From Melioribacter roseus (GTDB lineage Bacteria > Bacteroidota > Ignavibacteria > Ignavibacteriales > Melioribacteraceae), in NCBI GenBank assembly GCA_020723165.1, contig DYJK01000026.1:1-36234 (forward strand): a stretch of DNA of 36,234 nt, read 5' to 3'. The position numbers and the translations under genes were made by a program. Numbering within the stretch: the stretch's first letter is position 1; every line of letters begins with the position of its first letter. The notes beneath the pieces are model-generated. The model did no database searches. It had not been told where the DNA came from and was given only the letters and a program-made list of their open reading frames with translations. Below, piece after piece: positions 18,375 to 21,024 of the stretch.

Positions 18375-20531
18375 ATGAAAATTAAGAGCACAGTCTTTTT
18401 CGCTGCCTTAGTAATATTATTTTTCATCGCTTCAAATAATTACTCCCCGGTTTACTCGCAAGATTTAAGTTCGTTACAAATAGATTTCGGCGAAATCCCT
18501 TCGGCAACTATGCCGCTCGATATAGCATTGAAGCACCGCTTCAAAATAAAAAACAACGGAACGACAAATTTAATTTTTGATTTGCAAGCGAGAGTAATCG
18601 ATACAAACCAGGAAGCGGTTACTTTTCCGCAGCCGCCGGTTTTGTATCTCGCACCGGCTGAAGAAATCGAGATCGCTTGCATACTCGATGCGGCAACCGG
18701 TAATTTAGGTATACTCCCAGTTGGGCAACACACGAGAAGTGTTAAATACAAATTCATCAATCATAATAATAGTGCAGACTCTGTTTCCGCAACTGCGACT
18801 TATTCAATTACGGTGATCGACAAAAACAACATTTCCGGTTCTTATTCCGTTAGCGGAAAAGTTGTTGATGAAAATGGCAACCCGGTCCCGAATGTTCAGA
18901 TTAATCTCGATACCGGTGCGGATTTTAGTCTGCCCAACGGAACAAACAACAATGGCGAGTTCAATTATTCCGTTCCGTACAACACAAAATGGATGATCAA
19001 AGCAAGCAAGGAAGGTTACAACGATGCATACCAGTTTGTAGATTTGAATCAAGCCGGGCAATATCAGATTGTGTTGACGCGTGCAAAATTTTACAGCGTA
19101 AATTTTCAAACCAAAGCTTCGGTTGATTTTGATTTCGGATTTTGGCAAGGTGCGGTTTCGGATGATGAAAGTAAAATTCTTCTTACGCAAGGAATGGAAA
19201 TTTGGTACAACGATAATCTACGTACCGAGAGTAAATTATTTCTTTACAACTCTGGCGGCACAAAAATTTGGGAACACCCGATGGGATACGAATCGTGGGG
19301 AATTTCAATCAGCCGCGACGGTAATTATGCCGCTTACGCGCAGAAGCATATCACTCAGCCGAAAATTGTTTTGCTCGAAACTTCTTCTCCAACAGTATTG
19401 TGGGAAAAAGATTTTGATATTCAAAATTTTCCGACCGGCTCCTTTTTCATCGGGCACAACAGCAATGAAATAAGAATCTCGAACACAAATAAGTATGTTG
19501 CTCTTGGCAGCGGCGAAGGTGATTTTTATCTTCTCGATTTACCGACCGGAAATTTATTGTGGACTAAATTCACTGCCGGACAAGTTAGAAATGTTAGATT
19601 TTCCAGTGATGATAATTACGTTTACGTCGGAAGCGACCCGTGGCTTTACAAAGTTAACACCGCCAATGGATCTGTAGTTTGGAAATCTTACATTTACTCG
19701 TGGCCCCTCCATTACGGATTGCGTTTATCGCCCGATGAAAGTTTGATCGCATCGATGGTAAAAAGCGGCGAGATAACCGTTATCAACACAAGCGACGGTT
19801 CAAAAGTTTGGGATTTCGATCCCGGCGTGATTGGGCAGTGGCTTGAATTTTCTCGCGACGGCAAACAAATTGCCGCTTCTGCATTTGGCGGCGTTTGGGT
19901 TTTTGACATTGCAACCGGCGAACCTTCATGGAGAGTTAAAGGCACAAAAGCCGGGTACTTTTCAAAAGATAACAACTACCTACTTTTGTTCAACGAACTT
20001 TACACAAAAGAAGGAACAAGAATTTACATGTTGCCGCAAAATCAAGGCGGACAGTTTGCATTCATAAATGAAAACAACACAAACGCTGTGTTGGCAACCG
20101 GGCAAATGTATTCACCCGGCGTAGGATTGGTATTTTACGAAGGAACTGTTACAGATGTTGAACAAGAAAATTTACTGCCGCAATCTTTTTCGCTGGAACA
20201 GAATTATCCGAATCCGTTTAATCCGTCAACAACGATTGAGTATTTTATTCCGACCTCACCCTTGAATCCCTCTCCTTACCAAGGAGAGGGACATAGGGAA
20301 AAGTTAGTTACATTAAAAGTGTATGATATTCTAGGAAGTGAAGTTGCAACGCTCGTGAATGAAAAACAAACTCCGGGAAAATATTCTGTACAGTTTAACG
20401 TAGAGACAGTGCGCGCAACATCTCTACCAAGCGGAATTTCCGCCCAAGGCGGATACGCCTCTGGCGTATATTTCTACACTTTAACAGTTGGTTCATATCA
20501 CTCGGCAAGAAAAATGGTTTTGCTGAAATGA
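18375..20531 (+). CDS. Secreted propeller protein with T9SS type A sorting domain
   Basis: A 718-residue exported protein. Signal peptide 1-28 (VFFAALVILFFIA, cut near VYS-QD). An Ig/Hydin-like region (30-150) is followed by a carboxypeptidase-regulatory-like domain (about 153-235, GSYSVSGKVVDENGNPVPNV). A PQQ/WD40-like propeller (about 245-590) has repeated VVWKSYIYSW, KVWDFDPG and EPSWRVKG strands. The C-terminal Por sorting domain (about 600-718) has NYPNPFNPSTTIEY at 610-623, VTLKVYDILGSEVATLVN, PSG...GVYFYTL and a final KMVLLK. Type IX secretion would carry it over the outer membrane, with cleavage of the tail and possible surface attachment. Palindromic repeats have inserted in frame inside the sorting domain. 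SD GAGG is five bases before the ATG. Confidence 0.9.
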   Translation: MKIKSTVFFAALVILFFIASNNYSPVYSQDLSSLQIDFGEIPSATMPLDIALKHRFKIKNNGTTNLIFDLQARVIDTNQEAVTFPQPPVLYLAPAEEIEIACILDAATGNLGILPVGQHTRSVKYKFINHNNSADSVSATATYSITVIDKNNISGSYSVSGKVVDENGNPVPNVQINLDTGADFSLPNGTNNNGEFNYSVPYNTKWMIKASKEGYNDAYQFVDLNQAGQYQIVLTRAKFYSVNFQTKASVDFDFGFWQGAVSDDESKILLTQGMEIWYNDNLRTESKLFLYNSGGTKIWEHPMGYESWGISISRDGNYAAYAQKHITQPKIVLLETSSPTVLWEKDFDIQNFPTGSFFIGHNSNEIRISNTNKYVALGSGEGDFYLLDLPTGNLLWTKFTAGQVRNVRFSSDDNYVYVGSDPWLYKVNTANGSVVWKSYIYSWPLHYGLRLSPDESLIASMVKSGEITVINTSDGSKVWDFDPGVIGQWLEFSRDGKQIAASAFGGVWVFDIATGEPSWRVKGTKAGYFSKDNNYLLLFNELYTKEGTRIYMLPQNQGGQFAFINENNTNAVLATGQMYSPGVGLVFYEGTVTDVEQENLLPQSFSLEQNYPNPFNPSTTIEYFIPTSPLNPSPYQGEGHREKLVTLKVYDILGSEVATLVNEKQTPGKYSVQFNVETVRATSLPSGISAQGGYASGVYFYTLTVGSYHSARKMVLLK
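20268..20290. repeat. In-frame palindrome CCCTCTCCTT-acc-AAGGAGAGGG
   Basis: A perfect 10-bp stem with a 3-base loop inside the T9SS gene. Together with neighbouring bases it encodes the extra segment TSPLNPSPYQGEGHREKL between the TTIEYFIP and VTLKVYD strands, which normally lie close together in this domain. It looks like a short repeat element fixed in frame. Confidence 0.75.
20400..20427. repeat. In-frame GTAGAGAC-type palindrome, 28 bp
   Basis: Runs GTAGAGACAGTGCG then CGCAACATCTCTAC; 11 of 14 positions pair. It encodes VETVRATSLP, replacing the usual short linker before LPSG in the sorting domain. Its outer arms GTAGAGA/TCTCTAC match the perfect palindrome at 20543-20571, just after the stop codon. 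Confidence 0.7.
20431..20466. repeat. In-frame GC-rich insert duplicating the Ser-Gly of LPSG
   Basis: Contains GCGGAATTTCCGC (palindrome) followed by CCAAGGCGGATACGCCTCTG. It encodes GISAQGGYAS, so the usual LPSGVYFY becomes LPSG-ISAQGGYA-SGVYFY. Ten extra codons, frame kept, palindromic sub-units: most simply an inserted repeat. Confidence 0.65.
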
Positions 20532-20542
20532 AAAATAAGATG

Positions 20543-20571
20543 GTAGAGACGACTCGGCGAGTCGTCTCTAC
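20543..20571. repeat. Perfect 29-bp palindrome GTAGAGACGACTCG-g-CGAGTCGTCTCTAC
   Basis: A 14-bp perfect stem around one central base, 11 bp after the T9SS gene stop and just before the convergent lipoprotein gene's stop (20575). It could end transcription from both sides, but no T-run follows, so it is more likely a REP-like element; the arms match the in-frame element at 20400-20427. Confidence 0.8.
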
Positions 20572-20574
20572 AAC

Positions 20575-21024
20575 TTACTCACTCAACTCAAATTCTTTTT
20601 CTATCGAAATTTTCTTCTGCGAATAATCATCCGTTACATTGAAAATGATTTTGTATTTGCCCGGCAGATATGTTGAATCGAGTTCTGCTTGCATTTCGAT
20701 GGGCAGATCGGCGAATCTCTCTTTTGATTTTTCGTCGATCAATCCTTCACCGATTCCTTCGAGAAGTTTTCCTTCAGGTGTTTTTAAATCAACCATGTAA
20801 GAGAGTTTTACCGAGTAAATTTCATTATTCTCATTCTGCACAAAACCTTTAACACGGCACGTTGCGTTTAATTCCCATCCGGGACTTATCGAATATGCAA
20901 ATGCCTCCGCGGAAAAGAGTTCGAGTTTTTCTTCATTGCTTGAACAAGCTGAGAAAAAAACTACAATTAAAAAAAGGGTCGAATAGATTCGACCCTTGTA
21001 AGAGTTTTGATTTACAAATTTCAT
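20575..21024 (-). CDS. Small lipoprotein of unknown function, coupled to serC
   Basis: A 149-residue protein with a lipoprotein signal: basic start (MKFVNQNSYKGR), hydrophobic IYSTLFLIVVFF, then SAC with Cys27. The mature part is beta-rich and ends with an Ig-like pattern (YLPGKYKIIFNVTDDYSQKK). No known family recognised. Its ATG (21024) lies one base after the serC TGA (TGATATG), so it is probably translated from serC readthrough mRNA. A strong hairpin plus T-run lies inside the signal-peptide codons on the same strand and may cut expression relative to serC. A link to serine synthesis is not implied by the protein. Confidence 0.75.
   Translation of the reverse strand: MKFVNQNSYKGRIYSTLFLIVVFFSACSSNEEKLELFSAEAFAYSISPGWELNATCRVKGFVQNENNEIYSVKLSYMVDLKTPEGKLLEGIGEGLIDEKSKERFADLPIEMQAELDSTYLPGKYKIIFNVTDDYSQKKISIEKEFELSE
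20969..20997 (-). terminator. Hairpin with T-run inside lipoprotein signal codons
   Basis: On the minus strand AAGGGTCGAAT-ct-ATTCGACCCTT (stem 11 bp, loop 2) runs straight into TTTTT, the form of an intrinsic terminator. It lies 27-55 bases into the lipoprotein gene and just past serC. It may partly terminate the serC transcript. Confidence 0.6.

Follow-up and report, generated by a model that had tools for sequence, protein, structure and literature searches.

Probable double-foot REPs of the GTAGAGAC type in the T9SS sorting-domain loops of Melioribacter roseus

Two palindromes at the end of a sorting-domain gene

The window analysed here is a stretch of 36,234 nucleotides from Melioribacter roseus, in which the gene at 18375-20531 ends in a probable T9SS C-terminal sorting domain (20202-20528, plus strand), recognised from PF18962, TIGR04183 and a structural model. 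Both families align across the domain despite scores just under their cut-offs (24.0 bits for PF18962, cut-off 27; 21.1 bits for TIGR04183, cut-off 23), and its alignment with 16 other sorting domains contains 18 invariant columns. A model built from these 17 sequences has a mean pLDDT of 73, and a structure search with it placed the T9SS domains 8glk and 5m11 within the first six matches at an E of about 0.01.

Two palindromes, both probably double-foot REPs of the GTAGAGAC type, lie at the end of this gene. The coding element, GTAGAGACAGTGCGCGCAACATCTCTAC (20400-20427, plus strand), occupies what is referred to below as site 2 of the sorting domain. It has arms of 14+14 bases that are Watson-Crick paired at 11 of 14 positions, and is read in frame as GTA GAG ACA... 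to give VETVRATSL, at a codon position that it has in common with 20 other complete copies in the same genome. The intergenic element, GTAGAGACGACTCGGCGAGTCGTCTCTAC (20543-20571, no strand assigned), is a perfect 14+1+14 palindrome wedged between two convergent stop codons, namely the TGA of the host gene (20529-20531), 11 nt before it, and the stop of a minus-strand ORF of 149 aa (20575-21024, no Pfam match), 3 nt from it. The original prediction had placed a coding and a perfect intergenic element 115 bp apart and counted three lost pairs in the former; coordinates, spacing and pairing all proved correct. Both elements carry a 5′ GT[AG]G and a 3′ C[TC]AC end on one palindrome; these ends are GTAG/CTAC, and the CGTC end motif of Rickettsia-type or CGTC REPs is absent from both. 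The core of the intergenic copy, GACTCG, is also the core of the site-1 copies in the sorting domains of C130 and C185. As RNA, the intergenic copy folds at -20.8 kcal/mol (z -5.1, with none of 200 shuffles as low) and the coding copy at -7.5 kcal/mol (z -1.9, 13 of 200 as low), while a search for known RNA families across the window gave no match.

The same sorting domain carries further palindromic sequence. At site 1 there is an in-frame TCCCTCTCCTTACCAAGGAGAGGGA palindrome of another family (20267-20291, no strand assigned), which encodes part of PSPYQGEGHRE and is present in three sorting domains of the genome. Beside site 2, the sequence, the fold of 20395-20475 and the alignment agree on two short in-frame hairpins without assigned strand (20439-20468), TCCGCC-caa-GGCGGA at 20439-20453 and TACGCC-tct-GGCGTA at 20454-20468, which form a local insert, SGISAQGGYASGVYFY, of nine or ten extra residues between two SG motifs. 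Elsewhere in the window, the hairpins at 841-900 and 2833-2863 are related to each other and have AATCTGCTCT arms; they recall the AATCTGCGTT repeats that flank the transposase gene L010. A perfect hairpin, AAGGGTCGAAT..ATTCGACCCTT, lies at 20974-20997, close to where the convergent 149-aa ORF starts.

In the model of the window's domain, strands 23-30 and 48-55 border site 1, and strands 73-80 and 102-110 border site 2, which takes in a stretch of low confidence (86-97). If these strands correspond to strands 2/3 and 5/6 of known T9SS domains, the two sites would be the loops between them, which are reported to be variable. In the available part of PMC11285876, an insertion-type replacement of the strand 5-6 loop did not affect the export of a known cargo, and the strand 3-4 loop mattered; in the sorting domains of the present analysis no palindrome was found in that second loop.

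Copies, transposases and their distribution

The strict pattern GTAGAGACN{0,30}GTCTCTAC matched once in the window and never in 100 dinucleotide shuffles of it. Across the genome (3.81 Mb in 193 contigs) it gave seven matches against none for the reversed control, and the relaxed pattern GTARAGACN{8,14}GTCTYTAC gave 19 well-kept copies, again with no control match. Degenerate copies escape exact patterns, so the window's coding copy is not among the 19. These searches exclude the possibility that no other copies exist. With REP-associated tyrosine transposases (RAYTs) also encoded, they uphold the proposal that the two elements, with shared arms and different cores, belong to one mobile palindrome family, which is the best-supported reading of both.

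REPs are defined as extragenic, and their mode of spread is unsettled. Here, 16 of the 19 well-kept copies lie inside open frames, but intragenic REPs are known, and this placing therefore touches the name rather than the kind. Ten copies occupy site 2, four site 1, one a RAYT gene and one another coding sequence (C96:511), and the three intergenic copies all start 2-15 nt past a stop codon. One of the candidates, C57:8539, was considered as a frame-shifted sorting-domain copy and rejected; it is intergenic, 15 nt past the stop of a sorting-domain gene. A PF18962 profile search gave 122 matches at E<=10, and the DNA of all except three weak ones was used, as 30 loci, 80 further stretches and the window itself. 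At 122 x 240 bp, such domains account for about 0.8% of the genome and hold 14 of the 19 copies.

Site 2 is the codon position that follows ...FN or ...D and precedes SGVYFY, and site 1 follows TTIxYxIP. When degenerate and nested forms are included, the 103 aligned rows in which site 2 was read contain 21 complete elements, plus one broken by N (L114). Perfect palindromes (arm >=9, loop <=4) were counted in the 101 distinct complete domains without N and occurred in 25 of them, against 35 of 5050 codon-shuffled domains; the other 76 have none. Their total is 31, with 21 at site 1, ten at site 2 and none elsewhere in the domain. Three other palindrome families also use site 1. Occupied domains are only five residues longer at site 2 than unoccupied ones, so that the 28-bp element replaces about 13 nt and is no clean insertion.

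Several domains show variants at site 2. L102 and L103 have another GTAG palindrome there, giving the peptide VGANRRFALQ. In L082, L099, L107, L118 and L120, a second palindromic element of 30 bases lies in frame precisely at the apex of the GTAGAGAC palindrome, and the outer palindromes of these five have three different cores. L088, L096 and L117 carry a different, GCATTCCGAGC-like repeat with the peptide HSExSRGI/M.

A candidate enzyme is present as well. A search for a REP-associated tyrosine transposase, proposed along with the original prediction, was rewarded: the PF01797 profile has eight matches at E<=1 in the genome, which encodes RAYT-type transposases, one of them with an in-frame copy in its own gene. 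This RAYT, L014 (C102:16813-17346, minus strand), contains GTAGAGACTCGCCGCGGCGAGTCTTTAC in frame past the HuH motif, encoding VETRRGESLP, ten residues that recur in the sorting domain of L001. Across 40 sequences N80, H81, H83, W140, Y161, N165 and P166 are invariant and Q141 nearly so; L014 has two marks of subclass 2.4, the HuH, W-Q and Y---NP motifs and a REP lying in frame between HuH and Y. The closest structure to its model is TnpAREP 4er8 (E 8.1e-7), and its family scores are 23.1 bits for PF01797 (cut-off 23) and 55.8 bits for NF047646, under the cut-off of 80. Within its 3.2-kb locus only the internal copy was found and no second REP beside the gene, which is therefore not REP-flanked as REPtrons are. 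In the RAYTs L012 and L013, the corresponding loop contains other GTAG repeats, in two-hairpin form and in frame. In L011 (C139), a RAYT of another kind, a GTAGGTCGAAC palindrome follows MPNHVH in frame, and a related single-foot repeat, GTAGGTCGAAG, flanks the gene on either side.

Internal palindromes were counted in a set of 104 non-identical RAYT ORFs that contain MPNHxH, those of the present genome included; these ORFs are related and hence not independent. Perfect arms of >=12 occurred in the loop window of 47 of the 104, compared with one in an upstream window of equal size and none in 2080 codon shuffles. When one mismatch and arms of >=9 were allowed, 89 of the 104 had an element, with both feet in 55, the left only in 16, the right only in 12 and neither in 6; all 71 left feet stood in one of two open frames. 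A second count found an internal element in 88 RAYTs, 68 of which also had a flanking palindrome, and internal and own flanking palindromes shared >=12 nt in 26 of 68 cases against 50 of 5916 pairs from other loci. Some cyanobacterial and Patescibacteria RAYTs (L178, L180, L193) contain several tandem REP-encoded loop peptides, such as a repeated DVETRNFT.

To follow the distribution beyond this genome, sets of 296 phylum and 76 family genomes were used, both samples from larger groups. With a core of 8-14, the strict pattern was found in 62 of the 296 phylum genomes (reversed control 2), and RAYTs of the L014 kind in 130. A RAYT accompanied 49 of the 62 palindrome genomes against 81 of the 234 others, an odds ratio of 7.1 that ignores kinship among genomes that are not independent; the other 13 palindrome genomes had no RAYT match at E<=1e-10. 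At 29 first-match loci from the phylum set, the palindrome lay in a RAYT ORF in five, a sorting domain in one, another long ORF in two and none of these in 21. Within the family, the relaxed pattern occurred in 51 of 76 genomes (control 1), and the first-match loci of other family genomes had a sorting-domain copy in 7 of 28 cases (G304, G047, G176, G314, G316, G306, G116), a weaker concentration than in the present genome. The family probably includes Melioribacter: all 172 sampled 60-mers of the locus L338 (G082) are present in a contig of Melioribacter sp. MnB_16. A site-2 pattern matched 13 of 76 family genomes; 30 of its loci were taken, comprising 22 sorting domains, one RAYT (L303), one ambiguous case (L308) and six that were neither. 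Site 2 is confirmed in seven genomes (G000, G035, G047, G304, G328, G350, G176), and together with G314, G316, G306 and G116 one or other site is occupied in at least 11 of the 76.

Outside the family, site 1 was confirmed once (L155 in G263, from another family of the order), and site 2 was not confirmed in the 296 sampled phylum genomes. A pattern covering several GTAG types at site 2 matched 14 of these 296 and yielded ten new loci: one sorting domain from the family itself (L373, G047), its frame shifted at the element, one long ORF without a sorting domain (L369) and eight in ORFs of <=93 aa. Site 2 of L373 holds a GTAGGGGC palindrome of 29 bases, which causes the frame shift and thereby disrupts the sorting domain; the relatives of this palindrome in L102 and L103 are 28 bases long and keep the frame.

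Core evolution and the origin of the copies

The cores at site 2 were compared across 48 elements from six genomes, one N-bearing element having been dropped. All eight in G350 read TTGCCG and both in G047 GAGGCA; the 14 in G035 read GCCATA (8), GCGCCA (5) or GTTGCA (1), and the commonest among the 21 of the present genome are GTTGCA (6) and GTTCCA (4). Core identity averaged 0.669 within and 0.415 between genomes, while that of the 60 nt upstream was 0.719 and 0.658. When only pairs whose upstream identity was 65-75% were compared, the cores scored 0.658 within (180 pairs) and 0.399 between genomes (418 pairs), and none of 2000 label permutations reached either difference. By this sequence comparison, site-2 cores are largely genome-specific.

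There are 19 distinct site-2 cores, eight of which are perfectly self-complementary. Among 18 distinct elements of the present genome, 92.1% of cells pair and 7 of 14 pairs are altered on both sides. Covariation between the arms amounted to 0.336, a level that none of 500 shuffles attained (0.162) and that compares with at most 0.164 for slid partners, although softer measures were reached by shuffles (both-side-changed pairs in 17 of 500, pair types in 48 of 500). The suggestion that the window's coding copy lost three pairs through selection on the protein fares less well: among copies at the same codon position, 9 of 48 keep all 14 pairs and 43 of 48 at least 12, and coding status alone thus does not force the loss.

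Several explanations for this pattern were weighed. That the palindromes are accidents of chance or codon usage in a common loop peptide has next to no probability: the encoded peptides are indeed similar (VETxxxxSLP), but the absence of matches in shuffles and reversed patterns and the excess of perfect palindromes over codon-shuffled domains rule it out, and the same palindromes are found between genes. Retention for a function, either as 3′ ends and bidirectional terminators or as RNA folds that delay translation or shield the mRNA of secreted proteins, is very improbable. It could draw on the position of all three intergenic copies just past stop codons, with the window copy between convergent genes, on the covariation of the arms and on a single terminator-like match (minus strand, 20571-20543; 0.3 in shuffles). 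However, the T-run of that match is weak, offset and confined to one strand, the window's coding copy folds weakly, and three quarters of the sorting domains do without any such palindrome.

The main rival to transposition is recombination between sorting domains, by which one or a few arrivals would have been multiplied through duplication or short-tract gene conversion among about a hundred paralogues, with the transposase now doing little there. This account is considered rather unlikely, even though the 122 PF18962 matches offer much homologous sequence, element-bearing domains of the genome are alike upstream of the site (VNEYQQPGKYSVQFN), cores are common to several copies within genomes, and over the next 15 nt downstream same-core pairs of the genome are 0.92 identical against 0.79 for different-core pairs. 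Upstream, in contrast, same-core pairs from all genomes are barely closer than different-core pairs (0.78, 0.81, 0.70, 0.67 and 0.87 against 0.73, 0.77, 0.66, 0.69 and 0.84 in successive bins). Furthermore, the same sites are occupied by different palindrome families, further copies are found within a RAYT, within another coding sequence and past stop codons, and the internal core of the G350 RAYT L336 is that of all eight site-2 copies (three RAYTs read of eight matches).

Both palindromes are probably best regarded as GTAGAGAC-type double-foot REPs of the subclass 2.4 TnpAREP/RAYT kind, a family whose copies in this genome lie mainly in two T9SS sorting-domain loops, and comparison of the sequences suggests that the transposase replaces the copies. 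Briefly, single-strand transposases of subclass 2.4 would handle short, non-autonomous double-foot REPs; the RAYT is predicted to cut the folded single-stranded REP at its foot and may then copy or exchange it into sites elsewhere. REPs that land inside genes would mostly be lost, but would be tolerated in the two permissive loops and immediately past stop codons. Repeated exchange, or hairpin-templated repair, could keep the copies palindromic and let cores shift together within one genome. Points against this reading are that no REP was found beside L014, that 13 palindrome genomes had no RAYT match, that shuffles reached the two softer covariation measures, that fewer first-match loci of other family genomes lie in sorting domains, that the element at site 2 is no clean insertion, and that RAYT-internal cores differ from the site-2 cores in most of the genomes compared.

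A bolder version is that the RAYT keeps its cognate REP in its own frame as a linked donor. From such donors, one palindrome sequence would be exchanged for another while the ends stay fixed, the loops would be rewritten repeatedly, and a selfish repeat would diversify the loops of many secreted proteins. This is improbable. In the present genome, the RAYT core recurs exactly in one of 21 site-2 copies, with two degenerate relatives, and no match between RAYT-internal and sorting-domain cores was found among the RAYT matches read in G035 (3 of 11), G047 (2 of 4), G304 (3 of 4) and G328 (2 of 3). A rule that site-2 cores equal the RAYT-internal core of the genome was rejected, being clear in G350 only; the internal copy is a possible donor for site 2, though not a general one.

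Taken together, the genome provides about a hundred paralogous sites that are permissive for landing, in which element cores resemble one another within a genome and differ between genomes, their ends and flanks being kept. The sorting-domain copies thereby constitute a natural experiment on transposition versus gene conversion, and on whether the internal RAYT copy acts as donor. The palindromes also account for odd loop peptides in the sorting domains of this lineage (VETLHATSLP, SPLNPSPYQGEGHRE), and possibly for domains that score just under model cut-offs, that of the window included.

Relation to known palindromic repeats

What appears to be new is the concentration of double-foot REPs in two T9SS sorting-domain loops with cores grouped by genome, which was not found in print. 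No treatment of palindromes in T9SS sorting domains was recognised in a literature search that mostly did not extend to subscription papers, and among the matches listed in a search by sequence strings no title concerned bacterial repeats.

In a REPIN, two REPs in inverted orientation have GTAG at their outer ends. The in-frame two-hairpin forms in the RAYTs L012 and L013 resemble them, whereas the window elements are single hairpins without a spacer.

The RAYT part of the present system is already known from Quentin et al. (2018, PMC6006769), the available part of which describes double-foot REPs together with in-frame REPs inside tnpAREP genes of subclass 2.4 (Bertels group 4) and reports this subclass from Bacteroidetes, Cyanobacteria and other phyla. 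Like those found here, the REPs described there are dispersed and have GTAG at the 5′ and CTAC at the 3′ end, and the transposase likewise has NHxH, WQ and YxxNNP motifs with in-frame REPs between HuH and Y. The same part of that paper is silent on T9SS sorting domains, on loops as repeated landing sites and on genome-wise change of cores.

Other parallels come from Di Nocera et al. (2013, PMC3733652), as far as its available text extends. Rickettsia palindromic elements (RPE) also lie in frame in protein genes, but RPE-4 and RPE-6 are CGTC-tagged, unlike the GTAG-tagged window elements, and CGTC repeats are described there as lacking a dedicated transposase. Closer are the GTAG palindromes of the same study, some of which lie in frame in genes and many close past stop codons, and whose families share the trait of alternative complementary stem bases. 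These REPs are mostly intergenic and the intragenic ones lie in varied genes, although two recB genes share one REP site, whereas 14 of the 19 well-kept copies described here lie in a single domain family.
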